Shown here: positions 14,608 to 60,591 of the stretch, piece after piece | Layout: each line of letters starts with the position of its first letter | Numbering within the stretch: the first letter of the stretch is position 1 | NCBI GenBank assembly: GCA_025174535.1 | Contig: JALBUN010000037.1 | Location: 1 to 64,000, forward strand | DNA: 64,000 nt | Reading direction: 5' to 3' | Origin: Cantharellus purpuraceus | Taxonomy: Eukaryota; Basidiomycota; Agaricomycetes; Cantharellales; Hydnaceae | The notes under the pieces: generated by a model | The model's database searches: none | Seen by the model: only the letters and a program-made list of their open reading frames with translations | What the model was told of the DNA's origin: nothing | Made by a program: the position numbers and the translations under genes

Positions 14608-14846
14608 TGTCTTAGTTCACACTGTTACACAGAACTCAACCAAGTATATTGGTTGTGTGATGTGCTGTACAGTGTGGTTGTTTACTAAGGTCTGTCTACT
14701 GTATGTGGACCCACACATGTACTTGGGTCCACTGGCTTATATAATAACTATACATATGCATACTATGGGTGCATATATCTACCAAGAAGACAGCATTCCT
14801 TAATAGAATGCTGCATACATTAATTATAATTATATACTATAGAATG
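14608..14846 (-). mobile_element. Hairpin-rich 270-bp repeat, truncated copy
   Basis: Starts TGTCTTAGTTCACACTG and contains the same hairpins as the full copy at 31064-31341: GTGGACCCA pairing TGGGTCCAC, and GCATTCC pairing GGAATGC. It breaks off at ACTATAG near 14846, before the GTAAGTACCC palindrome that ends complete copies. No coding capacity. Orientation is given relative to the copy at 60592-60869. Confidence 0.65.
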
Positions 14847-15250
14847 AGGCACAATCTCATTCAGTACTTTTTAATCATACAGCTCCTTATGAAGCTGCTC
14901 CAATGAGTCAGTGTCCATATGATCATCTTGATTATATGGCTCTAGAGGGGGATGGCTCTCAGTTGTCCCCAACGTGGTTGTGGTATCCTCATCCACTTGA
15001 ATGGATGAGGAGGATGCAATTGCTACTGCAGCATCCCAATTGAGGTCACAATTAACTTGATCGTGACCTAAATGCTCAGCAAGAGAGTGTTTAGCAGCTT
15101 TATGAGCTGCTTGGGAGACTCCTTGAGTCCCCTGCTTTCACTTACCAACCCTGGTAGGCTGGTTAAATGCTGCTCCAGAGGTGATGCATTTAGCAAATTC
15201 CTCTAATATAGCAGCACAATTGGGGGTGATGTCTCCCGATCACCCAAACC
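14847..15250 (+). other. Hairpin-tiled non-coding segment of the gypsy-related composite
   Basis: Matches 50719-51118 and, inverted, 40813-41215. It contains successive stems such as CAGCT/AGCTG, CCTCATCCA/TGGATGAGG, AGGTCAC/GTGACCT and AGCAGCT/AGCTGCT. No intact reading frame. It lies between the 270-bp repeat and the long LTR-like repeat at 15251. Confidence 0.6.
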
Positions 15251-28862: not shown

Positions 28863-29255
28863 TATGTTCTTTGGGGGAGCGATTCTCCTAATTATACGCT
28901 CCAGTGATTGAAGTGCAGAAGATGTCACCAAGAGTTGGTGAGAACTTTTGACCACTGGTCAATAATTCCCAGTGGCTGGGATTCTGGAACATAGTCCAGA
29001 GGTTCTTCTTAAACACAGAAGAACCCTTCTTGGGAGTGGCCTTTTGCAGCCACATCCATATGTCCACATTGGACAAGTTCATGGTGCCATCCAACTCCTG
29101 TTGGATGGCCAGGGGGACCCCATTAGGGTTTACTTGCCACCTCTGTATGAGGGTAAGTGTGTCTACCGGTGTAGTTGATAGAGTGATGATAAGACTCACA
29201 TTATCAGCATGAGCCAGCAGAGTCATTCTCTTGATGACTCTGCGCATTGGTACAG

Positions 29256-29562
29256 TGTCAGGGTTCATATGACTCAGTTTCTATTTTGAGTACCTTTCTT
29301 ATCACCCCTATCAGCACAGCCTGTTAGGGTGCACTCTCCTATCTCTCCCTATTGTTCCCCTATCTTGGTTCCCCTATTGTTCCCCTATCTTGGTTCCCCT
29401 ATTCCTTGCATCGTCTAGTATAAAGACCTTGCCTGGTGCAGCATGGTTTCCTCAGCTTGATCTCTGAGGATATCTGCTGTACCAGCTGGCATTATCTCTT
29501 ATCGGCTCTCACTTATTGAGTATCTTGTTGTTGTGGCCTCATCATTCAGCATAGCCCTCACA
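29256..29562 (-). mobile_element. 307-bp solo LTR with TACAG target duplication
   Basis: Begins TGTCAGGGTT and ends CCCTCACA, flanked by TACAG at 29251-29255 and 29563-29567. It contains a TATAAAG box near 29420 on the plus strand and a 25-bp tandem repeat. The uninterrupted target is seen in copy A2 (near 40420). The mirror copy is 62372-62678. Confidence 0.8.
29350..29399. repeat. 25-bp tandem repeat inside the 307-bp solo LTR
   Basis: Two perfect units of TATTGTTCCCCTATCTTGG plus TTCCCC (29350-29374 and 29375-29399), followed by a few bases of a third. The mirror is near 62535-62585. Confidence 0.85.
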
Positions 29563-31063
29563 TACAGTCCATTTTGCAATCAGCGTGGCCAATGCCTTTT
29601 TATGGAGTGATATGAACTCTGGAGTGTCCATATCACAGATGTTGAACCAGTCTGCCCTGATGGGGGTGAACTTGTCCAGAGGTTGTGGCAGGTGGCCAGT
29701 GACTGCTCTGGGAGGGTCAGTCACAGTCATGAACCATGGTGCCCATTTGGGGAATGATTTCCCCATATTGGCATGCTTGAGAGCATGCCTGAAATTGTCC
29801 CAGCAATTGCGATAATTTGCACATTGGGCTTCTTCCAGCATCTTCAATGCTGGATCTTTTAAGGTACAGCTGGCATCACTGTGTATTCCTTTTGAAGCTG
29901 ATCAATCTCAGCTTCAATTTCAGATAGGGCAAACTCAAAGAGTTTTCCCAGTTGCTTAGCACCCTTGGGGATGCTAGCCAGGAGGAGACTATGATCATGG
30001 TTGCATCCCTCCTAAATTGGGTCAGTGTCATCCCAATCTTGACCCTCAAACCCTTGAGGGTCGACCCAAGGCAGTTTGCTCAGGGGATCATCCTCTTTGG
30101 TGAGGTTGATCATTTCCCATGACAATGAAGCCATGGGTTGTGAAGGCATAATGGCAGGCAGTGATTTGCCTGCCGTAGTACATGATAACAATGCTACTGG
30201 AGCCAAGCACACTGTTGTGAGCTTGGTTTTGAACATAGGAGGTGCTCTATCTGCAGCCTCCTTCAGTGTTTTTAACTAATCTCTGAGACGAGTTACTTCA
30301 GACTTCTCATTATCAAGAAGTCCTTCGAGTTCTTGGACCTGTGCAAACAGGTCTGAGTTATCTTTATACATTTTATTGTAGTCTTTACGATAAGGTGTCA
30401 TGACATCATCTTTGATGTCACATATAAGTTGTGGCCATGCAACTCTTAATGCTCTTTCCACTGAAGCAGTGGAAAGATATAGTCAGCCTCCATTTTGGGC
30501 CTTGATTAAGTGCGATACGTATGTGTTGCACTTGTTACATCTGTGAGAGTGATGGATGGCAGTGCCACCATGCCATCTGCCAATTTTCCAGGTCATCTCA
30601 TCTTAATGACCTCTGATCATATCTGCAGCACTTATTGCAGGTGGTACTGCTGTGGAAGTTTGTTCAACTTCCATTGGATGCTCATCTTGAGCATCCATCA
30701 TCTCTCTTCTGGGAGATGACATTTTGGTGGAGGGGGGGTTGTGGTGGTTCAAAGAAGCACCGTTAGCCTTTTACAGCAGAGCTTGAAAATTTTTTATTGA
30801 GAATTTTTCTGGTGACTATGTCACATGGGTGTAACACAATTAATTATCACTTACCTCTTGCATGCTACCATGAGTAGCACAATGGTAAACTGCTCCCTAT
30901 GGGAGCAGTTTTTACTGCTATTGAGCTGCCTGTTGTTATGGCAGCTCTATCCTCATCTAGGAACTACCATTAATTAAGGTAGTTCCTCTTCCTCTCATTG
31001 AACTACCATCATTGATGGTAGCTCCACTTCTCCCCTTGAGCCCCATTAGATCTTTGGGCTCTG

Positions 31064-31341
31064 TATAAATGTGTATCTTAGTTCACACTGTTACACAGAA
31101 CTCAACCAAGTATATTGGTTGGGTGATGTGCTGTACAGTGTGGTAGTTACCTAAGTTCTGCCTCCTACATGTGGACCCACACATGTACTTGGGTCCACTA
31201 ACTTACATAATAACTATACATATGCACCCTATGGGTGCATATATCTATTAAGAAGACAGCATTCCTTAATGGAATGCTGCATACATTAATTATGACTATA
31301 TAACTACATACTATAGTAAGTAAGTACCCTGGGTACTTACA
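31064..31341 (-). mobile_element. 278-bp hairpin-rich repeat with CTCTG target duplication
   Basis: Flanked by CTCTG at 31059-31063 and 31342-31346. The equivalent region of copy A2 (near 38880) lacks it, so it is an insertion. On the minus strand it begins TGTAAGTACCC and ends ATTTATA. It contains stems 31171-31198 (9 bp), 31220-31242 (10 bp), 31258-31280 (9 bp) and the near-perfect palindrome 31320-31340 (10-bp arms, 1-nt loop). No ORF. Class unknown; size and TG start are compatible with a very short solo LTR. Confidence 0.7.
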
Positions 31342-31398
31342 CTCTGTCTCTCTGAGAACTACCATTTATGAGGTAGTTCTCACACTCAAATCACCCCT

Positions 31399-34300
31399 CA
31401 AAGCTCTAAATAATTGTCTAGAGCTTCTAGGTCCTTACACAACATGTAAGGTTCCTAGGTGATGTCTCCCAATGTCCATAGAACTTGAAATTCAAGTTCT
31501 TTATTGCTTATCCATTGATGAGTGATGATTTCATCAACAAGCCACTCTTGCTCATTGTTGTTTCCAAAGTCATAAAATGACTTTGCTTCCTGTTTAAGGA
31601 ATCTCATCTCATTATTTGACACATACAGTCAAATGAGACTGACATGGAATGTAGGCATAATGCATCTACTAGTTGTTAAGAAAAGATATGGAAGGGTGTT
31701 GTGGGTGAGTGTAAAATGATGGTGAGGGATGGTGGCGAAGTAGATTTTTGAATAGGGGAGCAATTACTGCAAGGATGCAGATATATGCAGGGTCGATGGA
31801 AAGATATTGTTTAGTAGAGTAATGTTACCAAATATCAGAATATTTGGTTAAGAACTGGGACTTCTGCGAAATATTTGAGCAGAAATGGAAATAGCAACAC
31901 TTCGAAAAAGTGTTTGCTTAATAGAAATGGATGTAATGATCCAAATCGTTCGTAATTTGAGATAGCAATAGTTGATGCAATATCCTAATGGGATATGCAA
32001 AAGATTTCCAATAGAATAGGTCGTTTAGGAGTTATTCCAGGAACGACAGAAAGTTGACACAAGCTGTTTGTTTGCAGCTTGGAAGGGATTAAGAGTAATG
32101 AATCTCCTTCTTGATACTCGTACACAGTTGTAGTTAATATACAATTTGACAATCACATGATAAAAAAGCCTTTTAGTAAGATTGAAACATATGATAAAAG
32201 AAATGATGTGGATACTGATAATATGTGATGTCATGGGGAAAAACTTTTTACAGAGAAAGGAGTTTTTACCCGTTTGACTTGATGTTTATGACGAATGAAA
32301 ATCATCATAATACCTCCCTTTTTGAGTAGTAGCCACCCCGTAGAACGAAAGGATGGCTCACAAAATAAAATCGAAAAACACCTTCTCCTCATCCCTTAAT
32401 CAAAAAAATTCCCAAACTTTTCACAACTTTTTCTTATCATAAAACTCCCCCTTCTTGCTCCAATAAATTGTAATATTCCTTGAATAAATTCTTGACACTA
32501 GTCAGTTCTGGTGGCAGTTCTAGTGTCATCATTGAAGCTTTATTATGGGCTTCAATTACTTTATAGGGCCTGATAAACTTGGGCACTAGTTTGTTGGTTC
32601 TACCTTAGGTAGAGTCAAGTTCTTCATTGAGAGGTAGACCTTGTCACCTCTCTGGAAGATTGAACCTTTCTGATGTTTCTTATTGGCATGAAATGTCTGA
32701 ATGACACAACTTTCTATGATTGCATTGTGCATTGCTAGCAGGTTCATTTGAGCCTGCTGTGCAAATTGTTTGACACCCTTGAACTTGGTGTCATTGTTTA
32801 TAGGCATGCCTATTCTAGGCATATACCTGTAGTTAAGCTCAAATGGAGTAAACTCCATTGTTGAGCTTATGTTGGAGTTTAGTGTGAACTCCACCATTGG
32901 ACACTTATGTGCCCAATCTTTCTGATCACTTTGTACAACTATAAGAAGTATTTGGCCAATGGAATGATTTGCTTGTTTCTTCACTCTATCTGTTTGTGAA
33001 TGGAACACTGTGGACATGAGGAGTTTCACTCCTATTATCCACTGTAGTTCACACCAAAAGATAGATGTGAATTTTGAGTCTCAATCAGACACGATTGAGT
33101 CTGGTACACTGTGAAGGTGTACAACTTCTCTAATGAATAGCCATGCTACTCCTTTGACTGTTACATGCATATCTGTAGGTATTATATGTGCCTGTGATGT
33201 GAAGTGATCTATGACTACCAGTAGGTAGTCATAGTCATTTGATTTTGGTAATGGACCCATAAAGTCCATATCTATTGATTACCAGGGTCGTTCCAGTACT
33301 GACAAGCTATGAAGGAGCCCTATGGGTTTCTTCATACTGTCTTTATTCATTTGGCACTTTGTGCATGAAGTGCAGAATGATTCAACATCAGTGGCCATGC
33401 CTGGCCACCAGTACAACTGTTAAATGTAATTCATGGTCTTTAGTTGACTAAAATGGCCAACTACTTGGTGCACATAATCAATTATTATCTTGACCAGCTT
33501 CCTCCCCTTCAGGAATGCTGAGCAGGGTATACAACATCACATCTGTATATATTTTTGGTCCATATTAGACCATCACATATGCCAAATCATGCATGCTCTT
33601 TTGGTGCTTCCAGCACCTTAGAAAGGACAGTATCCTTTCTATATGCACCTCATACAATCTGCATGAGGTTGATCCCATGCTTGACATGGGATCACAATAG
33701 TGTTCCATCATCATCTGATGACATCACTCCAATGTCCTCTATTTCTTTAGAGGAATTAGAATTATTATTCAATGATTCTGTTTGAACATGGAGTGCTTCA
33801 GCTTCTAGCACTCTGTTCTCTTTTTTCTCAAGCAGTTGCCTTTGGGTAACTGCTGCTGTCCTGATCTCAATGAACTGTTCCATAGAGAGCAGTTCTCCTT
33901 CAGGGTCGAGATGTACATCTGCACTCATGTAGATGTAGTTGGGATGACTCTCTGTTGAGGAGTCATCGGCATAGTAGCATGATAGACAATCTGCTACTTT
34001 GTTCTCTACCCCATCTACATGCAGGGTAGTAAAGTTGAAATGGGATAAGAACTCCCACCATCTAATCTGTCTAGGAGACAGGTTCTTTTGAATCTTGAAA
34101 TATTTGAGACCCTTATGGTCAGTTACTAGGACAAACTTTCATCCTAGTAGCTTATCTTCCCATTTCTCAAGCACAGCTATAGTCTCATGCTTGTGGGTCT
34201 TATAGTGCTACACAGCAGCACTAAATTTCTTGAATAGGAATCTGGCAGGCCAACAGGTCTGCCAATCTTTTCCTTGTCCATAGACGGCTCCGACTCCAGT

Positions 34301-34975
34301 TTTGGAGCTGTCAGTAATAATTCAAATAGTATTGGGGTTATTAACATCAATGGACTTCAATATTGGAGCCCTACATGCTAGGAGCTTAATACTTTTGAAG
34401 CATTTCTCTAGCAATGGCATCCATAAGAATAAACAATTATTACAAGCACAACCCAATAATGGGGTAATGTATGCAGTTATATCTGGCATATAGTGTGCCA
34501 GATACTGCACTAGTCTAAGGAAATATTGGACTTTGTAGTATGACCTAGGTTGTCTCCACTCTCATATTTGCTGCATTTTATCAGTGTCTGCATGCATGCC
34601 TTGGTCATCTATTAGGTGACCAAGGCAATCCATACTTGTTGAGTATAGATTGATCTTATCCTTGCTCAATGCCATCTTGGGTATATCTGTCAGCCTGACA
34701 TGTATCTGTTTGTATGCCTCAGACATATCAAGTTTAGATTAATATGTACAGTGGGCAACATTGTATCTGATGTTGTTCTGATTGGGGTAGGGCATTATAT
34801 CCTTCACTGTATTGTCATTCTGTTTGTGCAAGTCAAACACAGTGTGGAGCTTCCCATTTTTCTTGGGAACACATAGCATTGGTACAGCCTGTCGGGCTGT
34901 AGCTGGTACCCACCACTTAGCAGTGGTGTATCGCAGAACTTTCTCTGAAAGTTCTGCTTGGCTGTAAGTACCCAA
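31399..34975 (-). pseudogene. Ty3/gypsy pol remnant (RT without active site, RNase H, integrase, C-terminal domain)
   Basis: Reads right to left. RT fingers (QAVPMLCVPKKNGKLHTVFD, 34975-34739), then SKLDMSEAYKQIHV. The frame then jumps directly to MDCLGHLIDDQGMHAD, so the segment with the catalytic Y-x-D-D is deleted. Next come the connection/RNase H region (RAPILKSID; ITDSSKTGVGAVYGQG; LVTDHKGLKYF, about 34530-34090), an acidic linker (33928-33692), integrase core (MDFMGPLPKSNDYDYLLVVI, 33269; VFHSQTDRVKKQANHSI, 33005) and the final domain (MPTFHVSLI; SFYDFGNN; EWLVDEI; WEPYMLCKDLEALDNYLEL), ending at 31399. Many stops. The solo LTR at 31674-32497 splits the end, and hairpins run throughout. 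Not functional. Confidence 0.83.
31674..32497 (-). mobile_element. 824-bp solo LTR with CTAGT/ACTAG target duplication
   Basis: Flanked by CTAGT at 31669-31673 and 32498-32502. It starts TGTTAAGAAAAG and ends TTCTTGACA on the plus strand. It sits inside the gypsy pol remnant; the intact target (CTGACTAGTAGGTG) is present at 38580-38593. A second family member is at 43809-44630. No internal coding region, so it is a solo LTR. The mirror copy is 59436-60259. Confidence 0.92.
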
Positions 34976-35231
34976 GGTACTTACTTACTATAACATATAA
35001 GTACAATTAATATATGCAGCATTCCCTTAAGGAATGCTGTCCTCTTGGTAGATATATGCATCCATAGGGTGCATATGTATAATTATTATGTAAGCCAGTG
35101 GACCCAGTACATGTGTGGGTCCACTTATAGTGGGTGGAACTTAGGTAACTACCACACTGTACAGCACATCGCCCAACCAATACACTTGGTTGAGTTCTGT
35201 GCAATGGTGTAAACTAAGGCACCTAATAACA
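34963..35231 (-). mobile_element. Hairpin-rich 270-bp repeat between divergent pol and gag
   Basis: Starts TGTAAGTACCC on the plus strand and ends CACCTAATAACA. It carries the same hairpins as 31064-31341. It lies exactly between the minus-strand pol remnant and the plus-strand gag remnant. No clear target duplication was seen, which suggests it was involved in the rearrangement that put the two gene halves back to back. Confidence 0.6.
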
Positions 35232-35420
35232 CTTTTTTGAACTTCCAAAGAAAGAATCAATTGATTCTTCCTCATTATTAAAGTTTTCTAGTCAATACTA
35301 GAAAACCAGCTGTTGCTGGTGTACAGACATATACCAACCCCCAGTCGCTCATATAAGTGAGCAACTAGTAGACTAACTTAGTTAGCCTATAAAGATAGAA
35401 GAAAGAAAGGAGTCATCATA

Positions 35421-37957
35421 ATGATGACTCACAGTAGAGTGAGTCATGCTGGCAGTGCACAGGATATCATAAATGATGAATGGCAGCATGTAGCCAGCAG
35501 CAGAAGCTCCAAGGAAGGGGAGCTAGACCTTAGAAAAGTCGCAGGGACTTCTCATAAGGAAGACTCTAGAAGAGAGTTGCCACAATCGTGAGATCACACA
35601 ATAGATCATCTGTCAAACAAGAACCCTTCATCAAGTGGTTCTTTGATTAGATAAGAAAGGAGGAGATAGTCATCCACTGTCTCCAATGTTCCTAAAGGAA
35701 AGGAATGTACTCAATATATGAGCACAAGTAGAAGTAGCAATACTTCTACTAGGGAATTGTACAGCATGGAGCAGCATGAAACCCACAGGTCAATCACAAG
35801 ATTGACTGAACAACTCATGCATAATCAACATGAGATGAAGAGCATTAGTGAAGCTAGTGCTCAGGCAGCTAAGATGGCTACTGAAGCAGGGCATGCTGCC
35901 ACTACTATGGGGCAGCAAATAGCAGAGCTAGGAACAATGTTAAAATTGCTCCAAGAGAACTCTGAGCAACACAAGTTGCATTGCTAAAGATTGGATTCTT
36001 GACAAGAATCTGAATCCAGAGAGTCTGGACCTCCCTGGGGTGAGAGGGTCCAATTGAATGATCGGTTAGACAGAGGAAATGAAATTCCCTCAATGGAGGG
36101 AATTAGAGACCCAGTAATCCCAGTGAGGCAAGGATTACCGATCCAGATTGAAGAGGAAACCCCTCAATCCATGACAAAGGAGCTTGATCAAGAGATCAAG
36201 CCATGGAAATAATGAGAAGTTGAGGCTTCTCATAAACATAGATTAGCTCTCAAATGGAAGGCTAAACATGCAGAGCAGGAGCTTGGCCACCTGTTTAGAG
36301 AGCAGCAGCCCCAGGAAGAGCTCAATGTGGCTGTTGATTTAAATCGACAGTCGCGACATGCGCTGAACAGTTATCAGCATATACAAGCGGTGAGCCTTTC
36401 AGGAGACACCTGCCATGAGCAACAAGATACCAAATGGGTACCTCAAGAAGACATTCCCCATAACAGGGAACAATCAGTGCCATTGACTCTAGAAGGTCAA
36501 GGCATACTGTATCAATTGGACACAATTGATCCTATCAATGGCATTACTCACATGGTGTGAGTAGCCATAGTTGATAATAGAGACACAGACCCAGAGAAGT
36601 CTGTACTTGCCAAGGTGGACATTAAAGTATCGCCTCCTGAGCAATATGCAGGAGGTGCAGATCTTGAAGAGTTTAAGATCTTTGTAGCAGGTATGCTACA
36701 ATGGCTGAAGATGAATAATCTCCTAGGGCCATCAAGTACAAAGTTTCAGCTATTGTACTTAGGCACTCGCCAGAAATAGTTCTACAGGAATGTAGAACAC
36801 TACAACAGGGCAGTCCAAGACTGGACCCTGGAAACTGCAATCCAAGGATTGCAGCATAGATTCCTACACACCCTGACGCATCACCATGCATCAAATAAAT
36901 TTGACTCTGTAATACAGGGTCAAAGGACCATTCATGAATTAATGAATGGCCTCGATAAGTATGTGGGCCACATGATAATGCTGCCAGATGCATACACATA
37001 CAGGAAGAGGTTTATAACCACAATGTGTGAACCTCTGAGACAAGAAGTCCTCAAGAAGGGCTTCAATGCCAAGTTTAGCAGTATAGCAGTTGTACAAAAC
37101 TGCTCAAATGATAGAGGAAGTGATGCAATACCATCAACAGTATGCGACACCTGGAGAATGTGACTAATGCATCCTCCTCAACCCATAGACCAGTAGTCAA
37201 TAGAACTACTGGTATGATGAATATGGGGAGTTGACCCATGCCCCAAGGATGTGTGTCAAGGTTGGAATCCCATAATGGAAGCTCCAGGTCCAATTCCAAC
37301 AATTACCTTTTCAAGGGTAATTATCAATCGAAGCCACCAGCACACACAAGTGGTGATCGATTGAACAATGTTACTAGTAATGCGTGACAGGTATGAAAAC
37401 CTTCATGCTAGAGCAACCCATTGCACTGCAATTAGCGTGCATTGGGAGCAGGAGTACCATAAATTATGGTACTCACACTACCATAAAGTTTGGTAGTTGG
37501 GACATTGAAGAATATTTCAATGTCACCAACATTGAGTATTACAGTGTAATACTTGGTACCCCATTCCTATGAAGGCTAGGAATATGCCTGGACTTCAATG
37601 GCCCAGGCTGAATCATGATGGGAACTGAAGAAGTCCCCACCAATGAAGAGCATAATACTGATGCTCTTCATACCCCATCATGGGGTATAAACTCAATGCA
37701 AAGAAGGAGTATTGGTGTGAATAAATGATGCCAAGGGGGTAACTCTAAACACAAGCTACCCACAATGCAGTCCTTCCTAAAAAAAGGACTAGACTTGGTA
37801 AAGGACAAATAAGAGCACAAGGTGAATAGCTTCGTCTCGTGAAGGATCAAGCTTACATGGCTGGTCAGATCCCTCAGTTGAGGGATCAATAGAAAGAAAA
37901 GTACGCTGACCTATTTGGCAGCATACCCTTAGAACTTCCCCCATTTAGGGAAGTTAA
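35421..37957 (+). pseudogene. Ty3/gypsy gag-protease remnant
   Basis: ATG at 35421 (MMTHSRVSHAGSAQDI) begins a gag broken by stops. A helical segment (35718-35987) is followed by a capsid region (near 36790-37160: LQHRFLHTLTHHHASNKFDS, then LPDAYTYRKRFITTMCEPLR), which matches basidiomycete gypsy Gag. A retropepsin-like domain follows (37384-37572: TGMKTFMLEQPIALQLACIG, then INYG, EEYFNVTN, VILGTPFL). Its catalytic D-x-G part is not preserved in this copy but is seen in the spacer copy at 45705. The frame then reaches the start of RT (LFGSIPLELPPFREVN) and is cut by a solo LTR at 37958. A probable CCHC region between gag and protease is unreadable. Confidence 0.78.
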
Positions 37958-38471
37958 TGTTATGACTATATTCATTAACACCCAGATCCCCGTCCGATCC
38001 CCTCAGATCCCCGCACATATGAAATCTATACTCCATTTGGAAACCGCTACGTCTCCATTTTCCTGTCCGATTGTCACTGCCGATTCCGCCCATCTGTCTC
38101 TGGTTCTGATTGATGCATCAGCATCACCATAGGAACCTGGACATCCGTCCCCATCGGACTCGGACATACTCATGTAAGGCCATCGGCCTCGGAGACCCAT
38201 CACTGGAGTAATTATTATTAGATTTTGAATATGTATTTAAGTTGCCAACTGGGGACTTCATTCCCCAGTTCGAATATCGAATCATGCCTAGCTCCTAAGT
38301 CCGATCCTAACTCTGTAAGTCGTACTCCGTCTCTGAAATCTCGGACACCGGTATTAGTGAGGGCGCAGCACATAAGCTGAAGCCAAGTCCGTTCCGACCC
38401 CCATGACATGCTCCGACTCCGACCCAACCTCCGACCCAATCTCCGACCCCAATCGGTACTAGTGCGTAACA
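37958..38471 (+). mobile_element. 514-bp solo LTR with GTTAA target duplication
   Basis: Begins TGTTATGACTATATTC and ends GTGCGTAACA; flanked by GTTAA at 37953-37957 and 38472-38476. Inserted in the RT motif PPFREVNH of the gypsy element; removing it and one GTTAA restores that motif. Related copies lie at the centre of the giant inverted repeat (45344-45470 and 46084-46583). The mirror copy is 53462-53975. Confidence 0.92.
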
Positions 38472-38839
38472 GTTAACCACAAGATTAATCTCATGGATCC
38501 TGACAAGCAAATACATTATCACTTGTCTAAGTGTCCAGAGCACTAAGCTTTGACAGTGACACTGGAACTGCCACCAGAACTGACTAGTAGGTGCATTATG
38601 CCTACATTCCATGTCAGTCTCATTCAACTGTATGTGCTGAATGATGAGGTGAGATTCCCAAAATGGGAAGCGAAGTCATTTTATGACTTTGGAAATGATG
38701 ACAAGCAGGAGTGGCTTGTCAATGAAATCATCGCTCATCAATTGAATTTCAAGTTCTATGGACATTGGAAGACATCACCTGGGAACCTTACATGTTGTAT
38801 AAGGACCTAGAAGCTGGAGACAATTATTTAGAGCTTTGA
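38472..38839 (+). pseudogene. Gypsy pol remnant: RT start fused to pol C-terminus
   Basis: 38472-38548 reads VNHKINLMDPDKQIHYHLSK, the beginning of RT. It then jumps, after a TAA, to the last domain of pol (LTVTLELPPELTSRCIMPTF, SFYDFGND, EWLVNEIIAHQ), ending near 38839. About 900 codons of RT, RNase H and integrase are missing; those parts lie in opposite orientation at 34975-31399. The segment from about 38556 on is a second, diverged copy of 31399-32540. Confidence 0.75.
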
Positions 38840-39274
38840 GGGGTGACTCAAGCATGAGAACTACCTCATAGACAGTAGTTCTCAGAGAGACAGAGCCCCA
38901 AAGATCTAATGAGGCTCAAGGGGGAGAAGTGGAGCTACCAAGAATAAAGGTAGCTCCTAGTGGGATGCAACAAAGAGCTACCATCAATGATGGCAGCTCA
39001 ACAAGGGGAGGAGGAACTACCTCAATTAAATGGTAGTTCCTAGATAAGGATAGAGCTACCATAACAACAGACAGCTTGATGGTAGAAAAAACTGCTCCCC
39101 TAGGGAGCAGTTCACTGTCATGCTACTCATAGTAGCACGAAAGGGGTAATTGATAATTAATTGTGTTACACCCATGTGACATAGTCACCAGAAAAATTCT
39201 CAATAAAGAATTTTCAAGCTCAGCCATAAAAAGCTAGTGGTGTTTCTTTGAACCATCACAACCCCCCCATCAAA

Positions 39275-40812
39275 ATGTCATCTCTCAAAAGGGAGATGAT
39301 GGATGCTCAGGATGAGCATCCAATGGAAGTTGAACAAACTTCCACAGTGGCAGCACTGGCAACAAGTGCTGCAGATATGATCAGAGGTCATTAAGATGAG
39401 ATGACCTGGAAAATTGGCAGATGGCATGGTGGTGCTGCCATCCATCACCCTCATGGGTGCAACAAGTGTGACACATATGTGTCACACTTAATCAAGGCCC
39501 AAAATGGAGGCTGACTATATCTTTCCACTGCTTTGGTGGAAAGAGCATTAAGAGTTGTGTGGCCATGACTTATATGTGACATCAAAGATGATGTCACAAC
39601 ACCTTATCATGAAGACTACAATAAGATGTACAAGGATGACTTGGACCTGTTTGTGCAGGTCCAAGAACTTGAAGGACTTCTCAACAATGAGAAGTCCAAA
39701 GTAACTTGTCTCAGAGATGAGTTAAAAACACTGAAGGAGGCTGCTGATAGAGCACCTCCTACATTCAAGACCAAGCTCACAATGGTGCACTTGGCCCCAG
39801 TAGCATTGCTATTGCCTGCCATTATGCCATCACAGCCCATGGCTTCATCATCATGGGAAACTATCAATCTCACTAAAGAGGATGATCTCCCAAGCAAATT
39901 GCCTTGGGTCGACCCTTGAGGGTTCAAGGGTCAGGATTGGGATGACACCAACCCAATCTGGGAAGGATACGACCACGATCATAGTCTCCTCTTGACTAGC
40001 ATCCCCCAGGGTGCTAAGCAACCAGGTAGACTCAAAGAGTTTGCCCCATCAGAAATCAAAGCCGAGATTGATCAGCTTTGAAAGGAATATATGGCTGGTG
40101 ATGCCAGCCATACCTTAAAAGACCCAGCATTGAAGACACTGGAGGAAGCCCAGCATACGAATTATTGCAAATGCTGGGACAATTTCAGGCATGCTCTCAA
40201 GCATGCCAATGCAGGAAAATCATTCCTCAAATGGGCACCATGGTTCATGACTGTGACTGACCCTCCCAGAGCAGTCACTGGCCACCTGCTGTGACCTCTG
40301 GTCAAGTCCACCTCTATCAGGGCAGACTGGTTCAACATCTGCAATATGGACACTCTGGAGTTCATATTGCTCTATAAAAAGGCATTGGCCACACTGTCCG
40401 CAGAATGGACTGTACTGATGTGCAGAGTCATCAAGAGAATGACTCTGCTCTGCTGGCTCATGCTGATAACATGAGTCTTATCATCATTCTACCAACCACA
40501 CCGGTAGACACACTTACCCTCATACAGAGGTGGCAAGTAAACCCTAATGGGGTTCCCCCAGCCATCTGACAGGAGTCAGATGGCACCATGAACTTGTCCA
40601 ATGTGGACATATGGATGTGGCTGCAAAAGGCCACTCCCAAGAAGGGTTCTTCTGTGTTTAAGAAGAACCTCTGGACTATGTTCCAGAATCCCAGCTACTG
40701 GGAATTATTGACCAGTGGTCAAAAGTTCTCACCAACTCTTGGTGACACCTTTTGCACTTCAGTCACTGGAGCGTATGATTGGGGGAATTGCTCCCCCAAA
40801 GAACATACTTAA
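39275..40812 (+). pseudogene. Coiled-coil/'WMWLQKATP' retroelement ORF, copy A2
   Basis: Same architecture as A1: MSSLKREMMDAQDEHPMEVE at 39275, CNKCDTY, coiled coil (DLFVQVQELEGLLNNEKSKV, about 39640), LPWVDP, WDNFRHALKHANAGKSFLKW (about 40170), and NLSNVDIWMWLQKATPKKGS (about 40590), ending at 40812. At least six stops. It lacks the solo LTR and the 278-bp repeat present in A1, so it shows the uninterrupted target sites. Stems differ from A1/A4 by paired changes, for example at 39911-39932 and 40056-40081. Confidence 0.65.
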
Positions 40813-41215
40813 TTAGAGCTTGTGCTCTGGTTTAGGTGATCGGGAGGCATCACCCCCAATTGTGCTGCTATATTAGAGGAGTTTGCTAAATGCATCACCT
40901 CTGGAGCAGCATTTAACCAACCCACCAGGGTTGGTAAGTGAAAGCAGGAGACTCATGGAGTCTCTCAAGCAGCTCATAAAGCTGCTAAATGCTCTCTTAC
41001 TGAGCATTTAGGTCACGATCAACTTAATTGTGACCTTGATTGGCATGCTGCAGTAGCAATTGCATCCTCCTCATCCATTCAAGTGGATGAGAATACCACA
41101 ACCACATTGGGGATGACTGAGAGCCATCTCCCTCCAGAGCCATATGAACAAGATGACTATATGGACACCAACTCATTGAAACAGCTTCATAAGGAGCTGT
41201 TTAAGCAGACTATAT
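40813..41215. other. Hairpin-tiled non-coding segment after copy A2
   Basis: Inverted match of 14847-15250 and 50719-51118. Stems include AGCAGCT/AGCTGCT and CCTCATCCA/TGGATGAGG (as read on the minus strand). No gene. Confidence 0.6.
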
Positions 41216-46083: not shown

Positions 46084-46583
46084 TGTTATGCACTAGGTCT
46101 GATTGGGGGTCGGAGGTTGGGTCAGAGTTGGAGGATACGTTGTGGGGGCCAGCACGGACTTGGCTTCAGCTTATGTGCTGCACCCTCACTAATACCGGTG
46201 TCCAAGATTTCGGAGACGGAGTACAACTTAGAGAGTTAGGATCAGACTTAGGAACTAGGTGTGATTCGATATTTGAACTGGGGAATGAAGTCCCCAGTCA
46301 GGCCACTTAAATACATATTTGAAATCTAATAATAATTACTCCAGTGATGGGTCTCCAAGGCTAACGGCCTTACATGAGTATGTCTGAGTCCAACAGGGAT
46401 GGATGTCTGGGTTCCTATGGTGATGCTGATGCATCAATCGGAACTGGAGATGGATGGGTGAGATTTGGCAGTGACAATCGGACAGATAAATGGAGACGTG
46501 ATGGTTTCCAAATGGAGTATAGATGTGTGGGGATCTGAGTGGATCAGATGGGGATCTGGGTGTTAATGAATATAGTCATAACA
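46084..46583 (-). mobile_element. 500-bp LTR spanning the spacer and the start of the right arm
   Basis: On the plus strand it starts TGTTATGCACTAGG and ends GTCATAACA, the reverse orientation of the LTR at 37958. Flanks ATTGG and GTATC do not match, so it is not a simple insertion. Bases 46457-46583 pair with 45344-45470; the rest is spacer. The palindrome therefore turns round inside this LTR. Confidence 0.8.
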
Positions 46584-46696
46584 GTATCTCTCCATTTAAG
46601 GCTGAGCCCCTGAGGCCTCATGTCCATGGATTGAATAGGTGAGACGGTTGGGTGCAGTTGGAGTTATACTGGGGGTCTGGAGACATATAAAAGGAC

Positions 46697-48971
46697 ATGA
46701 TTGAGGTCTTATCCTTAACAATGTCAAATCCTTTGGCAAACATGAGTGTGGCGGAGCTTGAGCAGTTGCTCCTGGCCCGACGGAAGGAAGAGGAAGAGGA
46801 GCAGAGACAGAGGGAGGAGGAGGAGGCAGAATGGAGACGGAAGGAGGAGGAGGAAGCAGAATGGAGACAGAAGGAGGAGGAGGTGGTGGAACGGAGACAG
46901 AAGGAGGAGGAGGTGGTGGAACAGAGACAGAAGGAGGAGGAGGAGGTGGAACGGAGATGGAAGGAGGAGGAGGTGGAGCGGAGACGGAAGGAGGAGGAGG
47001 AGGTGGAACAGAGACGGAAAGAGGAGGAGGAGGTGGAGCGGAGACGGAAGGAGGAGGAGGAGGAGCGGAGATGGAAGGAGGAGGCAGAGATGGGATGGAG
47101 AAGGAAGGAGGAAGAAGCGAAAGCCGAGTGAGCCTGCAGGGTCAAGGAACTTGTGGCCGCAATGAAGGCTGTGAGACTGAAGGAAGTGGAAGAGCAGGCG
47201 CACGAGCTAGAAGCCGCCATGGAGGTAGAGGAGGAGGTGACCGGGGCAGGGGCGACTAGTCACCTGGGGAGTCTGAGTGTGCCAATACCAGGCAGGTGTT
47301 AAGAAAAGATATGGAGGGGTGTTGTGGGTAAGTGTAAAATGATGGTGAGGGATGGTGGCGAAGTAGATTTTGAATAGGGGAGCAATTACTGCAAGGATGC
47401 AGATATATGCAGGGTCGATGGAAAGGTGTTGTTTAGTAGAGTAATTTTACCAAATATCAGAATATTTGGTTAAGAACTGGGACTTCTGCAAAATATTTGA
47501 GCAGAAATGGGAATGGCAACACTTCGAAAAAGTGTTTGCTTAATAGAAATGGATGTAATGATCCAAATCATTTGTAATTTGAGATAGCAGTAGTTAATGC
47601 AATATCCTAATAGGATATGCAAAAGATTTCCAATAGAATAGGTCGTTTAGGAGTTATTCCAGGAACGACAGAAAGTTGACACAAGCTGTTTGTTTGCAGC
47701 TTGGAAGGGATTGAGAATAGTGAATCTCCTCATTGATACTCGTACACAGTTGTAGTTAATATACAATTTGACAATAACATGATAAAAAAGCCTTTTAGTA
47801 AGATTGAAACATATGATAAAAGAAATGATGTGGATACTGATAATATGTGATGTCATGGGGAAAAACTTTTTATAGAGAAAGGAGTTTTTACCCGTTTGAC
47901 TTGAGGTTTATGACGAATGAAAATCATCATAATACCACCCTTTTCAAGTAGTAGCCACCCCCGTAGAACGAAAGGATGGCTCACAAAATAAAATCGAAAA
48001 ACACCTTCTCCTCATCCCTTAATCAAAAAATTCCCAAACTTTTCACAACTTTTTCTTATCATAAAACTCCCCCTTCTTGCTCCAATAGATTGTAATATTA
48101 CTTGAATAAGTTCTTGACAGCAGGGACCCCTGAGGTTGCCATTATCTTGATTATGCAGACAGAGTCAACCCGTCCAACAACTATCCCTACGATGGACTTG
48201 CCGTTACGTCTGTGGTCACAGCCATTATTTGCAGTGGGTGTGGCTGAGGAAGATGACGTGGCAGAGGTGGAGAGGGTGGAGGTGGAGGTGGACCCTGATG
48301 CCAATATGGAGCTTGACGCAAATGCGGAGCCAGAGGTGGGTGTGGATGTTGGGACAGATATGGAGCCAGATCCAACCTCGAATTGCTATGAGAAGATGGC
48401 TTGGGTAGGTGCGGTCAAAGCTCGCAAAAGAGCAGAGCTCTATGCTGCTACCACCAAGAAGAACCTCGAGGTTGCGATCTTTTCATTGAAGGCACACCCA
48501 AGTGCTGATACAGAGAAGTGGGAGGCGGACCAGAGGGTCATATGGTGCAAAGCAGAGAAAGAATCAGAAGGTCGTCCAACCAAAAAGCCACAGATGGAGA
48601 TGGGCACTGTGGCAGCTGGGGGTAGCAGTGTCGGATCGGAAGGAGCAATGACCAGTGCAGGTACGGGGTGTGTCTCTGCACCCAACAGTATCGTGGGCCA
48701 GCTTATCTGGCTGGTTAACCTGCAGTCGGAGCACCTCTGGCGGATGGAGGGGTTGTCAGTGGACTTGGTGAAGACAATGAAACAGAAGGAGGTTCTCAAG
48801 GGTCAGCAGACTGCTGAGTTGCGTCAGCTGCGGAAGTTCATGGCCCCCTTGGATGAGGATTCAGATATGGGGGATGAGAAAGATTGGGTGTTGGATGTAG
48901 AGAGTGATGATGAGTCGGAGATGGAGCCTGAGGTAGACAAGGGGAAGGGAAAAAGGAAACACAATGTATAA
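46697..48971 (+). pseudogene. Antisense-type coiled-coil ORF, right arm copy
   Basis: Mirror of 42957-45230: N-terminal coiled coil 46697-47131, TGA, continuation to the solo LTR at 47297, and the acidic/basic C-terminal part to 48971. The C-terminal frame (289 codons as read) is identical in both arms as far as checked. A few substitutions distinguish the coiled-coil parts. Confidence 0.7.
47297..48119 (-). mobile_element. Solo LTR, mirror of 43809-44630
   Basis: GCAGG at 47292-47296 and 48120-48124 on its two sides. 823 bp, one base longer than its mirror. Confidence 0.92.
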
Positions 48972-49135
48972 CATAAAAAATGAAAATGAAAATGAAAATG
49001 ATTGTAATATTTCGGAGCAGAGAAAAATAGGGTGGAGTGAGATTCCTTCAGAGTTTGGGGTAGACTTGTAATTTCCTTTGTGACTTTGTAATGAATGATT
49101 ATGCGAAATAATATAATTGGCATCAATAATGGAAC

Positions 49136-49478
49136 TTAAAGATTCATAAGAGGCCCAGGTTTGTTGAGATAAGCAGAGTGAAAATTGGACATGGATTTGG
49201 ATGTGTAATCAAGTTCGGACACAGAAATCCATGAGGACTCTTCATCGGTGCCTTTGTATCCAGTCCATTTGACTAGGTACTGGAGCTTGCACTTGTATTG
49301 ACAATTGATCTTCAAGTCCAGGATCTCAGTTATCTCATATTCGTTATCTCCTTTGATGATGATCGGAGGAGGTGGAGGTTGTGTGACCAGAGATCTCATT
49401 TGTAGTAGCAGGTTTGAGCATTGATATATAGAAGACCAGATGAACTGCTTGGAAGTGGTCCAGGAGGTGGAGGGTGAA
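49136..49478 (-). pseudogene. Chromodomain remnant, right arm copy
   Basis: Mirror of 42456-42798, with the same readable chromodomain (CKLQYLVKWTGYKGTDEESS) and the same upstream frame break. It is convergent with the coiled-coil ORF ending at 48971. Confidence 0.75.
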
Positions 49479-50718
49479 TGTATGGGAACCACCTTTTCCC
49501 TATTAAATCCTATTTATGCAGCACCAATGTGCTATACTTCGCTTTTCCATTCCTAAATATCAGCATATATTTGGTGCTTGTACCTGGTATGGACTTATTC
49601 AAATATTCTCTATTTTGCCATATTTTTTTTAGGAATATTCCATGCAGAACTCGTCCCAGAATGATTTATTTCTGCTGTGCTACAGTTGTGGACCCATAGA
49701 CACCCACAAACCTTCGCACAGCCGGCTCTCCCCCTTTGGACCAGGCATTTGGCCTGAATTCAAGCTCAGATGTCTCTGATCAATAAATATTCTGTAACTT
49801 GACAATCACAGCCTCTCAGGGCACTATGTTCCATGGAGATCATCATCTGAGATGTGGCTATCCATGGCTGTCTAAACCAGTGCAGAAAACAGGGTGGATA
49901 CCCTTCTTTTTGCCTGATCAGTGCCTAGTTCAGGGATCAGATCAGGTGATTGCCTTGAAATATTCTACCCCTTTCCATAACATTCTAGCTGTTTCCTTCT
50001 ATTATTAGATAGAATATTCCAGAACCATTATTCAGCTCCTGATCAGTGTTATTTCAGTGATCAGAACCTGTGATTGGCTTGGAATATTCTACCCCTTTCT
50101 TCCACCTTCCACAACCTTCCAGTAGTTTCCATCTATTGATAGGTAGAATATTCCAGAAGCATTAGTCAGCTCCTGTAAATACAATATATAAGGAGGTCAT
50201 TCTGCCTCTAAAACAGTAATATATTCTACCCATCTTCTGCACACCAGTGTGACTAGAGTGACATACAGTGTCATCCTCTATATCTTAGTAACTGTTGATT
50301 GTCCAGTTCAAGGGTCACTTACAGTTGTGTAACTGTACTTGATTGCACTTGAAGTAGTGATATTCCTGCTTTAGGCATGAGTGTACTATCTGCCTCACAT
50401 GACTATGAATCTACAGGGTGAGATTATCTGTCAATAGTCCTGCAGTTAGTGCTCTTGTTTAAGTTACTAGTGTGTACTGCCTTTGCAGAGCATTAGAAGC
50501 TTGAACTTGTGTGAAGCAGTTGCTAGACTACTTCACACATTGCTGTTACCCACTTCAGAGTGTCACTGGTTGGATGGTTGAATTCATCCACCTACTTCCT
50601 TTAGCCTCTAAGTGCATTCCCTCATTTTAGAATATCTGGACCCCTAAGCATCCATGAACTCTAGACTTTGGAAGTCTTATTCATTTCTTGCTGCTAAGAA
50701 ACATATTACTTTTCTGCA
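49479..50718 (+). mobile_element. Long LTR-like repeat L5, right arm copy
   Basis: TGTATGGGAACC at 49479 to about TTTTCTGCA at 50718, with TATATAAGG at 50185-50193. Best complete copy of L5; compared with 15251-16412 it lacks the TGACTC array but shares the region around and after the TATA box closely. Confidence 0.58.
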
Positions 50719-51120
50719 TATAGTCTGCTTAAACAGCTCCTTATGAAGCTGTTTCAATGAGTTGGTGTCCATATAGTCATCTTGTTCATATGGCTCTGGA
50801 GGGAGATGGCTCTCAGTCATCCCCAATGTGGTTGTGGTATTCTCATCCACTTGAATGGATGAGGAGGATGCAATTGCTACTGCAGCATGCCAATCAAGGT
50901 CACAATTAAGTTGATCGTGACCTAAATGCTCAGTAAGAGAGCATTTAGCAGCTTTATGAGCTGCTTGAGAGACTCCATGAGTCTCCTGCTTTCACTTACC
51001 AACCCTGGTGGGTTGGTTAAATGCTGCTCCAGAGGTGATGCATTTAGCAAACTCCTCTAATATAGCAGCACAATTGGGGGTGATGCCTCCCGATCACCTA
51101 AACCAGAGCACAAGCTCTAA

Positions 51121-52658
51121 TTAAGTATGTTCTTTGGGGGAGCAATTCCCCCAATCATACGCTCCAGTGACTGAAGTGCAAAAGGTGTCACCAAGAGTTG
51201 GTGAGAACTTTTGACCACTGGTCAATAATTCCCAGTAGCTGGGATTCTGGAACATAGTCCAGAGGTTCTTCTTAAACACAGAAGAACCCTTCTTGGGAGT
51301 GGCCTTTTGCAGCCACATCCATATGTCCACATTGGACAAGTTCATGGTGCCATCTGACTCCTGTCAGATGGCTGGGGGAACCCCATTAGGGTTTACTTGC
51401 CACCTCTGTATGAGGGTAAGTGTGTCTACCGGTGTGGTTGGTAGAATGATGATAAGACTCATGTTATCAGCATGAGCCAGCAGAGCAGAGTCATTCTCTT
51501 GATGACTCTGCACATCAGTACAGTCCATTCTGCGGACAGTGTGGCCAATGCCTTTTTATAGAGCAATATGAACTCCAGAGTGTCCATATTGCAGATGTTG
51601 AACCAGTCTGCCCTGATAGAGGTGGACTTGACCAGAGGTCACAGCAGGTGGCCAGTGACTGCTCTGGGAGGGTCAGTCACAGTCATGAACCATGGTGCCC
51701 ATTTGAGGAATGATTTTCCTGCATTGGCATGCTTGAGAGCATGCCTGAAATTGTCCCAGCATTTGCAATAATTCGTATGCTGGGCTTCCTCCAGTGTCTT
51801 CAATGCTGGGTCTTTTAAGGTATGGCTGGCATCACCAGCCATATATTCCTTTCAAAGCTGATCAATCTCGGCTTTGATTTCTGATGGGGCAAACTCTTTG
51901 AGTCTACCTGGTTGCTTAGCACCCTGGGGGATGCTAGTCAAGAGGAGACTATGATCGTGGTCGTATCCTTCCCAGATTGGGTTGGTGTCATCCCAATCCT
52001 GACCCTTGAACCCTCAAGGGTCGACCCAAGGCAATTTGCTTGGGAGATCATCCTCTTTAGTGAGATTGATAGTTTCCCATGATGATGAAGCCATGGGCTG
52101 TGATGGCATAATGGCAGGCAATAGCAATGCTACTGGGGCCAAGTGCACCATTGTGAGCTTGGTCTTGAATGTAGGAGGTGCTCTATCAGCAGCCTCCTTC
52201 AGTGTTTTTAACTCATCTCTGAGACAAGTTACTTTGGACTTCTCATTGTTGAGAAGTCCTTCAAGTTCTTGGACCTGCACAAACAGGTCCAAGTCATCCT
52301 TGTACATCTTATTGTAGTCTTCATGATAAGGTGTTGTGACATCATCTTTGATGTCACATATAAGTCATGGCCACACAACTCTTAATGCTCTTTCCACCAA
52401 AGCAGTGGAAAGATATAGTCAGCCTCCATTTTGGGCCTTGATTAAGTGTGACACATATGTGTCACACTTGTTGCACCCATGAGGGTGATGGATGGCAGCA
52501 CCACCATGCCATCTGCCAATTTTCCAGGTCATCTCATCTTAATGACCTCTGATCATATCTGCAGCACTTGTTGCCAGTGCTGCCACTGTGGAAGTTTGTT
52601 CAACTTCCATTGGATGCTCATCCTGAGCATCCATCATCTCCCTTTTGAGAGATGACAT
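51121..52658 (-). pseudogene. Coiled-coil/'WMWLQKATP' retroelement ORF, copy A3
   Basis: Mirror of copy A2. ATG at 52658, end at 51121, the same set of stops and the same C-terminal motif. The segment 50719-51120 between it and L5 is non-coding and hairpin-tiled. Confidence 0.65.
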
Positions 52659-53093
52659 TTTGATGGGGGGGTTGTGATGGTTCAAAGAAACACCACTAGC
52701 TTTTTATGGCTGAGCTTGAAAATTCTTTATTGAGAATTTTTCTGGTGACTATGTCACATGGGTGTAACACAATTAATTATCAATTACCCCTTTCGTGCTA
52801 CTATGAGTAGCATGACAGTGAACTGCTCCCTAGGGGAGCAGTTTTTTCTACCATCAAGCTGTCTGTTGTTATGGTAGCTCTATCCTTATCTAGGAACTAC
52901 CATTTAATTGAGGTAGTTCCTCCTCCCCTTGTTGAGCTGCCATCATTGATGGTAGCTCTTTGTTGCATCCCACTAGGAGCTACCTTTATTCTTGGTAGCT
53001 CCACTTCTCCCCCTTGAGCCTCATTAGATCTTTGGGGCTCTGTCTCTCTGAGAACTACTGTCTATGAGGTAGTTCTCATGCTTGAGTCACCCC

Positions 53094-53461
53094 TCAAAGC
53101 TCTAAATAATTGTCTCCAGCTTCTAGGTCCTTATACAACATGTAAGGTTCCCAGGTGATGTCTTCCAATGTCCATAGAACTTGAAATTCAATTGATGAGC
53201 GATGATTTCATTGACAAGCCACTCCTGCTTGTCATCATTTCCAAAGTCATAAAATGACTTCGCTTCCCATTTTGGGAATCTCACCTCATCATTCAGCACA
53301 TACAGTTGAATGAGACTGACATGGAATGTAGGCATAATGCACCTACTAGTCAGTTCTGGTGGCAGTTCCAGTGTCACTGTCAAAGCTTAGTGCTCTGGAC
53401 ACTTAGACAAGTGATAATGTATTTGCTTGTCAGGATCCATGAGATTAATCTTGTGGTTAAC
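53094..53461 (-). pseudogene. Gypsy pol remnant, right arm copy
   Basis: Mirror of 38472-38839: RT start fused to the pol C-terminal domain, next to the solo LTR at 53462. Confidence 0.72.
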
Positions 53462-53975
53462 TGTTACGCACTAGTACCGATTGGGGTCGGAGATTGGGTC
53501 GGAGGTTGGGTCGGAGTCGGAGCATGTCATGGGGGTCGGAACGGACTTGGCTTCAGCTTATGTGCTGCGCCCTCACTAATACCGGTGTCCGAGATTTCGG
53601 AGACGGAGTACGACTTACAGAGTTAGGATCGGACTTAGGAGCTAGGCATGATTCGATATTCGAACTGGGGAATGAAGTCCCCAGTTGGCAACTTAAATAC
53701 ATATTCGAAATCTAATAATAATTACTCCAGTGATGGGTCTCCGAGGCCGATGGCCTTACATGAGTATGTCCGAGTCCGATGGGGACGGATGTCCAGGTTC
53801 CTATGGTGATGCTGATGCATCAATCAGAACCAGAGACAGATGGGCGGAATCGGCAGTGACAATCGGACAGGAAAATGGAGACGTAGCGGTTTCCAAATGG
53901 AGTATAGATTTCATATGTGCGGGGATCTGAGGGGATCGGACGGGGATCTGGGTGTTAATGAATATAGTCATAACA
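53462..53975 (-). mobile_element. Solo LTR, mirror of 37958-38471
   Basis: TTAAC at 53457-53461 and 53976-53980; 514 bp, the same length as its mirror. Begins TGTTACGCACTAG and ends GTCATAACA on the plus strand. Confidence 0.92.
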
Positions 53976-56513: not shown

Positions 56514-56701
56514 ATGATGACTCCTTTCTTTCTTCTATCTTTATAGGCTAACTAAGTTAGTCTACTAGTTGCTCACTTATATGAGCGACTGGGGGTTGGT
56601 ATATGTCTGTACACCAGCAACAGCTGGTTTTCTAGTATTGACTAGAAAACTTTAATAATGAGGAAGAATCAATTGATTCTTTCTTTGGAAGTTCAAAAAA
56701 G

Positions 56702-56970
56702 TGTTATTAGGTGCCTTAGTTTACACCATTGCACAGAACTCAACCAAGTGTATTGGTTGGGCGATGTGCTGTACAGTGTGGTAGTTACCTAAGTTCCACC
56801 CACTATAAGTGGACCCACACATGTACTGGGTCCACTGGCTTACATAATAACTATACATATGCACCCTATGGATGCATATATCTACCAAGAGGACAGCATT
56901 CCTTAAGGGAATGCTGCATATATTAATTGTACTTATATGTTATAGTAAGTAAGTACCTTGGGTACTTACA
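56702..56970 (+). mobile_element. Hairpin-rich 270-bp repeat, mirror of 34963-35231
   Basis: From TGTTATTAGGTGCC to GGGTACTTACA. It lies between the divergent gag and pol remnants and overlaps the first codons read for the RT frame at 56958. Confidence 0.6.
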
Positions 56971-60535: not shown

Positions 60536-60591
60536 GGGGTGACTTGAGTGTGAGAACTACCTCATAAATGGTAGTTCTCAGAGAGACAGAG

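Follow-up and report, generated by a model that had tools for sequence, protein, structure and literature searches.

The window analyzed here, a 64,000-nt stretch of Cantharellus purpuraceus DNA (G000:C37:1-64000), contains two broken copies, in opposite orientation, of a retrotransposon whose sequence is filled with short perfect hairpins. Judged from its sequence, the carrier is a multicopy Ty3/gypsy-type long terminal repeat (LTR) retrotransposon with an extra orphan open reading frame (ORF) after pol, here called ORF3, and its parts follow in the order LTR, gag, pol, ORF3 and 3' part. The typical hairpin in this family has a stem of about 7–11 bp and a loop mostly of 3–7 nt, and the hairpins stand one after another.

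The LTRs were about 0.3 kb long, and seven copies were aligned. In six copies, the LTR started with TGTAAG (four copies) or TGTGAG (one copy) or had lost its start (one copy), and all six ended with ACA. Of three 3' ends inspected, two, both in locus A, had a polypurine tract (AAAAAGGGGAGGG) directly upstream of the 3' LTR; the third (14.6 kb) was without this stretch. The CCHC zinc knuckle of gag (CYKCGQTGHMRPSC) was read directly in a homologous locus (L035). The pol domains lie on the minus strand from 34.98 to 32.6 kb in the order reverse transcriptase (RT), RNase H and integrase. RNase H was identified at 33695-34138 (PF17917, E 7.8e-07), and integrase at 32589-33080 matched the Ty3 chain 7q5b at 2.6e-07. 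The RT piece (34742-34984) had no Pfam match and was 34–44% identical to other open frames of the genome. The element may belong to the chromoviral branch of Ty3/gypsy: the integrase end matched SH3_Tf2-1 (PF24626) at E 0.014, below the cut-off, and a chromodomain-like end was recognized in L010 by eye only. A Chromo match just below the cut-off, at 42421-42795, lies outside the hairpinned element. In one copy, ORF3 ran through 336 codons without interruption. No protein homologue of it was found at E 1e-3 among 3289 candidates, and two scans of viral contigs yielded no relative. ORF3 is under protein selection while carrying hairpins, with a ratio of nonsynonymous to synonymous differences (pN/pS, CpG columns masked) of 0.25–0.29 between subfamilies and 0.23 within. 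The phase of stem pairing relative to codons showed no clear pattern (11, 7 and 8 loci).

Hairpins were counted as perfect stems of at least 7 bp with loops of 1–10 nt, and the expectation was taken from dinucleotide shuffles. The element was far above shuffled sequence, with 26 stems at 28863-31040 (1.25 expected) and 116 at 31040-41215 (6.6 expected). In a stricter count (perfect stems, arm of at least 8, loop 3–10), the element region of 11.2 kb had 79 stems, compared with 1.4 in shuffled sequence. When arms of at least 8 and loops up to 40 nt were considered, 58 of 93 hairpins had loops of 3–7 nt with a peak at 4, and arms were 8–11 in 92 and 13 in one. The original prediction, made from the sequence alone, had counted at least 14 stems in 30041-31040, where our script gave 15, and had seen nothing similar in the copia element and the host genes. 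In accord with this, neither the host sequence at 1-13000 (8 stems, 7.45 expected) nor the copia element (4 stems, 3.2 expected) had an excess; the AT-rich element had 12 stems (6.65 expected). The original prediction had also described tiling throughout 28863-41215. The strong excess was borne out, but the tiling is not unbroken: hairpin density fell at element borders and inserts, with 1, 3 and 1 stems in 29257-29562, 31668-32506 and 37949-38545, respectively, and 2 stems in 41205-43808, beyond the element. The hairpinned stretch is thus a mosaic interrupted by likely inserts. A moderate excess was observed further out, at 43809-44630 (4 stems, 0.35 expected) and at 45471-46456 (7 stems, 0.53 expected), the latter partly homologous to 37380-37632.

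The dinucleotide shuffles ruled out chance and base composition as the source of the density. That tiny palindromic elements were inserted independently, or that the hairpins reflect composition or simple repeats, is hardly credible, and no observation in favor of this was made: besides the failure of the shuffles to reproduce the density, many hairpins lie within an uninterrupted ORF that is subject to protein selection, and inserted mini-palindromes were rejected because the listed stem sequences differ from one another.

Table 1. Parts of the hairpinned retrotransposon family in the window, with observed and expected hairpins.
Feature	Position	Strand	Hairpins (expected)	Remarks
Detached family piece, LTR + 3' part	14592..15250	-	8 (0.62)	
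3' part of minus-strand copy	28863..29256	-	6 (0.30)	
Probable insert	29257..29562		1	Absent at the homologous place of W2
ORF3 region, copy W1	29563..31024	-	19 (0.93)	
LTR, minus-strand copy	31059..31341	-	6 (0.45)	Apparently solo and nested
Homologue of the 38.6-38.9 kb part, minus-strand copy	31342..31667	-	7 (0.42)	
0.84-kb insert of another repeat	31668..32506		3 (0.78)	
pol of minus-strand copy (RT piece, RNase H, integrase)	32507..34959	-	25 (1.82)	
LTR of plus-strand copy	34960..35232	+	5 in 273 bp (0.20)	Begins TGTAAGTACC; alignment-defined
gag region	35376..37256	+	19 (1.0)	CCHC knuckle of L035 lies just beyond
Stretch 3' of gag	37257..37948	+	12 (0.38)	
Probable insert	37949..38545		1 (0.23)	Mostly matches a repeat present several times in locus A
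Integrase end, SH3-like	38546..38895	+	3	PF24626, E 0.014, below cut-off
ORF3 region, copy W2	38975..40414	+	19 (1.23)	Orphan ORF; coiled-coil according to the original prediction
3' part after ORF3 region	40409..40807	+	6 (0.42)	
3' part on 3' LTR side	40829..41200	+	5 (0.33)	
Mirror of 28863-45470	46457..63072	-		99.8% inverted repeat; without independent copies

The stretch 28863-45470 is mirrored at 46457-63072, forming an inverted repeat of 16.6 kb with 99.8% identity around a 986-bp centre. What the original prediction had taken for diverged copies at 60–62 kb is therefore the mirror image of 29–32 kb, and the real comparison is between the copies at 29–32 and 38–41 kb. Pieces of ORF3 and RT from the left repeat arm were matched at 100% close to the termini of contigs C1 and C35; because of these matches, the inverted repeat could be explained by a shared subtelomeric segment, by copies from haplotypes or by a join introduced in assembly. 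The segment 37380-37632 recurs at 45748-46000, in a weakly protease-like frame (PF13650, E 0.041, below the cut-off). Between the detached piece at 14.6 kb and the other parts of the family lie the copia and AT-rich elements. A 0.8-kb repeat occurs at 31668-32506 and 43809-44630, inverted and with 96% identity between the two places. It also breaks the element in locus A, at another place and with a 7-bp overlap, and for this reason looks like a separate small transposon.

The whole assembly (40.15 Mb, 50 contigs) was searched for the family. The query 29500-31040 gave at least 46 matches with 81–100% identity (scoring covered 40 of the 620 candidates of a first look), and hairpin excess was present in all 30 loci fetched, with 12–24 stems each against 0.2–2.0 expected; four of these 30 loci represent one copy. 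The ORF3 and RT-piece queries gave 137 and 146 matches, respectively, including diverged subfamilies and fragments. Hairpin tiling was absent from 20 of 20 other RVT_1 loci of the same genome, which had 0.6–2.3 stems per kb (judged by density alone), and likewise from the retroelement loci L040 and L034. Nine of ten random 3-kb stretches held 16 stems in 27 kb altogether; the tenth held 27 stems and turned out to belong to the same family at 89%. As far as sampled, hairpin tiling is confined to one multicopy family. Loci L065-L070 from the ORF3 search were left out of the analysis.

The stems are mostly pure Watson-Crick, without wobble preference. Among stems with one mismatch, the window element had 16 with G-U (2.7 expected), 28 with A-C (3.3 expected) and 20 with other mismatches (12.3 expected). 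Similarly, the 26 ORF3 copies had 351 perfect stems (5.8 expected), 49 with G-U (5.6), 55 with A-C (12.0) and 109 with other mismatches (43.2). These counts, made with looser flank rules and a ribosomal RNA (rRNA) control, replace an earlier one with tighter flank rules (2 G-T and 1 A-C stems for the window, and 9 and 21, respectively, for the 26 copies). The control, E. coli 16S and 23S rRNA, gave 0 perfect, 4 G-U and 0 A-C stems at arm 8. RNA folding of 53 element windows of 200 nt gave a mean z of -4.04 for the sense and -4.11 for the antisense strand, compared with -0.31 for host and copia sequence. For rRNA, z was -1.05 (sense) and -0.25 (antisense), with the sense strand folding more stably in 20 of 21 windows. 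The antisense strand of the element was lower in energy in 34 of 53 windows; since mean z was equal on both strands, this is probably an effect of composition. By G-U content, for which the excess was about that of A-C, and by strand-specific folding, no sign of selection on the sense-strand RNA was seen.

These data bear on the idea that the RNA or single-stranded cDNA of the element has been selected to form consecutive stable hairpins, be it for packaging, for stability, to evade host RNA defence or to avoid pairing over long distances, with the loop inversions described below as a by-product of perfect hairpins. We consider this possible, though rather unlikely. The folding z of about -4 speaks for it, and the simultaneous protein selection on ORF3 also agrees with it, but it does not sit well with the equal z on both strands, with the slight enrichment of stems with other mismatches, or with the lack of a sense-strand G-U preference, which extended to the shared pair-breaking changes in close copies (G-U 3, A-C 8, other 3).

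The close set consisted of 28 aligned ORF3 copies (W1, W2 and L005-L030); L001-L004 were left out, because L001/L002 are the window copy and its mirror and L003/L004 match at 100%. Many CG/TG/CA differences were present between these copies, as from cytosine methylation decay or a process resembling repeat-induced point mutation. At 15 sites with TG/CA variation in both arms, 158 of 304 cells were concordant and 146 discordant, and independence predicts 147.3 concordant; CpG decay is thus independent between the two arms of a stem. This removes the compensatory changes on which the original prediction had relied. Two of its pairs, GACCCTTGA/GACCCTCAA and TCAAAGC/TTGAAGC, are TG/CA differences at arm positions that read CG in other copies, and the arms decay independently; the third, at 38655, reads TTCCCAAAATGGGAA vs TTCCTTAAACAGGAA, and its inner pair looks CpG-derived. 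All three were rejected as evidence. Of the 303 stem pairs in the close set, 214 were classified; outside CpG-type columns, 2 of these had a Watson-Crick double change.

Because CpG decay was independent between the arms, there is no sign of repair in the resident copies, which suggests that the process acts outside chromosomal residence. We therefore regard as quite improbable a host chromosomal process (fork template switching or cruciform inversion) that acts on resident repeats without the element's own replication. In favor of it, the loop inversions are similar to the small inversions that stem-loops of plastomes and birds are reported to undergo (PMC6824564, PMC3123225), but the decayed CpGs were not reconciled between arms, and no excess was seen in the other retroelement loci or the random stretches sampled from the same genome.

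Five loci (L071-L075), with 72–82% DNA identity in the aligned pieces, made up the diverged set. Summed over these copies, 46 hairpins were shared with the close copies, 6 were private and 17 majority hairpins were missing; the shared hairpins per copy were 10 of 12, 5 of 8, 6 of 7, 17 of 17 and 8 of 8. Fixed double changes that keep pairing numbered 13 between subfamilies, against 0, 0, 0, 1, 2 and 2 with slid partners; an example is TCTTTCCACTG...CAGTGGAAAGA changing to TCTCTCCACTG...CAGTGGAGAGA. The expectation that stem differences between copies should be paired was thus upheld between diverged subfamilies, but hardly within the close set. Synonymous divergence to the diverged copies was 0.196 in stems, 0.476 outside them and 0.62 in loops, whereas within the close set it was 0.086, 0.122 and 0.092, respectively. 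L072 was left out of the stem and loop divergence rates in the hairpin-sharing comparison and kept in the pN/pS and synonymous rates.

The pairing kept through double changes, together with the slower change of stems than of their surroundings, indicates that something maintains the stems. An old neutral relic, in which the hairpins arose once in an ancestor and were merely inherited, is improbable for the same two reasons, although it would account for the many diverged-copy hairpins common to the close copies and for the frequency of non-commonest pair states in the latter. Selection on structure gains from both the stem rates and the 13 double changes; within the close set, it is opposed by the weak difference between stems and surroundings (pS 0.086 vs 0.122) and by the scarcity of double changes (2 of 214 pairs). 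Copying between arms would also make stems slow in coding sequence, where a pair could change only if both codons tolerate it.

For the comparison of loops, 111 geometries with identical stem columns and loops of 3–9 nt were used, and loop bases alone were considered. Six of the 98 allele pairs that differed at three or more loop positions were exact reverse complements with intact arms (ATA/TAT, AAA/TTT, GGGT/ACCC and CTCA/TGAG in ORF3; CAA/TTG and ATA/TAT in the LTR), and none of the 98 was a reverse-only or complement-only pair. An exact reverse did occur in one loop pair, which differed at only two positions, of the TG/CA type. Under a looser pattern, the ACCC loop occurred in three sequences. 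The alignments outside ORF3 were small (gag 3, LTR 7, others 4, 4 and 2 copies), and from locus B (L033+L034), the loop counts include the ORF3 copy L006 only. On a tree built from 1232 of 1546 columns after removal of CpG-type columns, the four ORF3 loops require at least 3, 7, 2 and 1 changes; for one loop, the tree thus implies a minimum of 7 orientation changes among 26 scored sequences, and the mean non-CpG divergence of the close copies was 3.9%. The inverted loops point to copying from the opposite strand and not to intrastrand fold-back alone.

The original prediction had offered two options, repeated intrastrand template switching on a single-stranded intermediate or selected RNA structure. 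The exact loop inversions, the Watson-Crick stems and the lack of G-U or strand preference favor template switching, for which the density of the tiling, its restriction to one family in the sample, the pairing double changes between subfamilies and the precedent in rRNA and microRNA genes also speak; the RNA-structure option is weakened and still stands, because pairing has been maintained over long times. We judge the chances to be about even that the main cause is template switching at the DNA level during the element's own copying, that is, reverse transcription, and we infer both the causal role of switching in the tiling and its placement in reverse transcription. A mixture of template switching and selected structure is likely. 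In the proposed mechanism, the copying strand would stall at an imperfect inverted repeat and copy the other arm, by which a perfect stem would be made or repaired; alternatively, the whole hairpin would be copied from the opposite strand, leaving the arms unchanged and the loop inverted. Since hairpins promote stalling, the process would feed itself within the limits set by coding. Our tentative overall account, to which we give somewhat less than an even chance, is that reverse transcription of the element keeps turning near-palindromes into perfect hairpins and flipping loops, so that the whole element genome, coding parts included, becomes a self-reinforcing chain of hairpins alongside purifying selection on its proteins.

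Several observations weigh against template switching as the main cause. No hairpin birth or stem repair was seen as one multi-base templated step in the alignments inspected by eye, and the private hairpins of the diverged copies (2, 3, 1, 0 and 0) look by eye like single-step changes. An ancestral hairpin-free state was not found in the comparison, which was confined to this genome. The 13 pairing double changes reduce to six distinct pairs, the others recurring in more than one sequence, and another 4 double changes leave the bases unpaired. Slower synonymous change in stems is also predicted by selection on structure. At core stem pairs outside CpG columns, the close copies showed 14 shared (at least 3 copies) and 122 rare (1–2 copies) other states against 2 pairing double states; with so many non-commonest states, repair must be slow or absent on that time scale. 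As for the six inverted loops, three (AAA/TTT and ATA/TAT twice) cannot separate reverse complement from complement, and four (GGGT/ACCC, CTCA/TGAG, CAA/TTG and the LTR ATA/TAT) rest on a single flipped sequence. Shuffled labels gave 3.7, 8.2, 2.8 and 1.0 loop changes, near the values on the tree, so that recombination among copies could inflate the number of flips. Finally, the rRNA control was small, and at arm 7 it gave 3 perfect, 4 G-U and 3 A-C stems, without separation.

The window also contains other sequences. The copia-type element (16413-21650) had LTR-like ends 90% identical to each other, integrase and RVT_2 domains, and no hairpin excess. Next to it, the AT-rich element (21650-28863) is bounded by 319-bp direct terminal repeats with 99% identity and has ORFs of 246, 256, 216 and 420 aa; three of the four were checked and none of these had a Pfam match, and the 420-aa ORF appeared transposase-like by eye only. 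A DUF6535 protein is encoded at 3352-4737, with relatives over about the whole length in Gautieria (40%), Serendipita (39%) and Mycena (38%); closer relatives from JGI sources reached up to 72% over the whole length. These matches mark the host as Agaricomycete-like. Downstream of this gene, at 4944-9823, about 20 copies of a 168-bp unit are arranged in tandem, and the unit appeared HEAT-repeat-like by eye only.

The element shares LTR ends, polypurine tract, CCHC gag, RNase H and Ty3-like integrase with Ty3/gypsy LTR retrotransposons, and differs from them in the perfect hairpins that fill its sequence and in the extra ORF without a homologue at E 1e-3. Persistent RNA viruses have genome-scale ordered RNA structure, known as a statistical property of the folding energy of the RNA. 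In them, as here, structure extends over the whole genome including coding parts, whereas the palindromes of the present element are short, perfect and unbroken and favor neither one strand nor G-U pairs. Small inversions in plastomes and birds are scattered, whereas the hairpins here fill a coding mobile element. Small stem-loop inversions are reported for both, with homoplasy in birds, and short stretches between inverted arms flip as they do here (PMC6824564, PMC3123225). The closest likeness is in rRNA and microRNA genes, in which template switching creates and maintains hairpins and inverts loops; Monttinen and Loytynoja (2022; PMC8794818) describe perfect stems, compensatory changes and loop inversion with arms kept, as in our element. 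In their account, complete loop inversions are very rare and DNA replication is invoked, whereas here the whole length is filled, one loop requires at least 7 changes of orientation on the tree, and reverse transcription would be the copying step. The original prediction knew of no described fungal element with this property. No description of a retrotransposon tiled with hairpins was found to contradict it in the open-licence literature, which is weak support because the multi-term queries were narrow and most subscription papers lie outside that literature.

If template switching does have this role, a bias in mutation is enough to structure an entire mobile genome, and copying errors can produce covariation between arms, which usually serves as the proof that an RNA structure is functional. 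If structure is selected instead, the family would stand as a clear example of perfect hairpins throughout the genome of a retrotransposon. With more than 100 sequence matches in one genome, it provides material for estimating rates of template switching and loop flipping and for studying the conflict between hairpins and coding.

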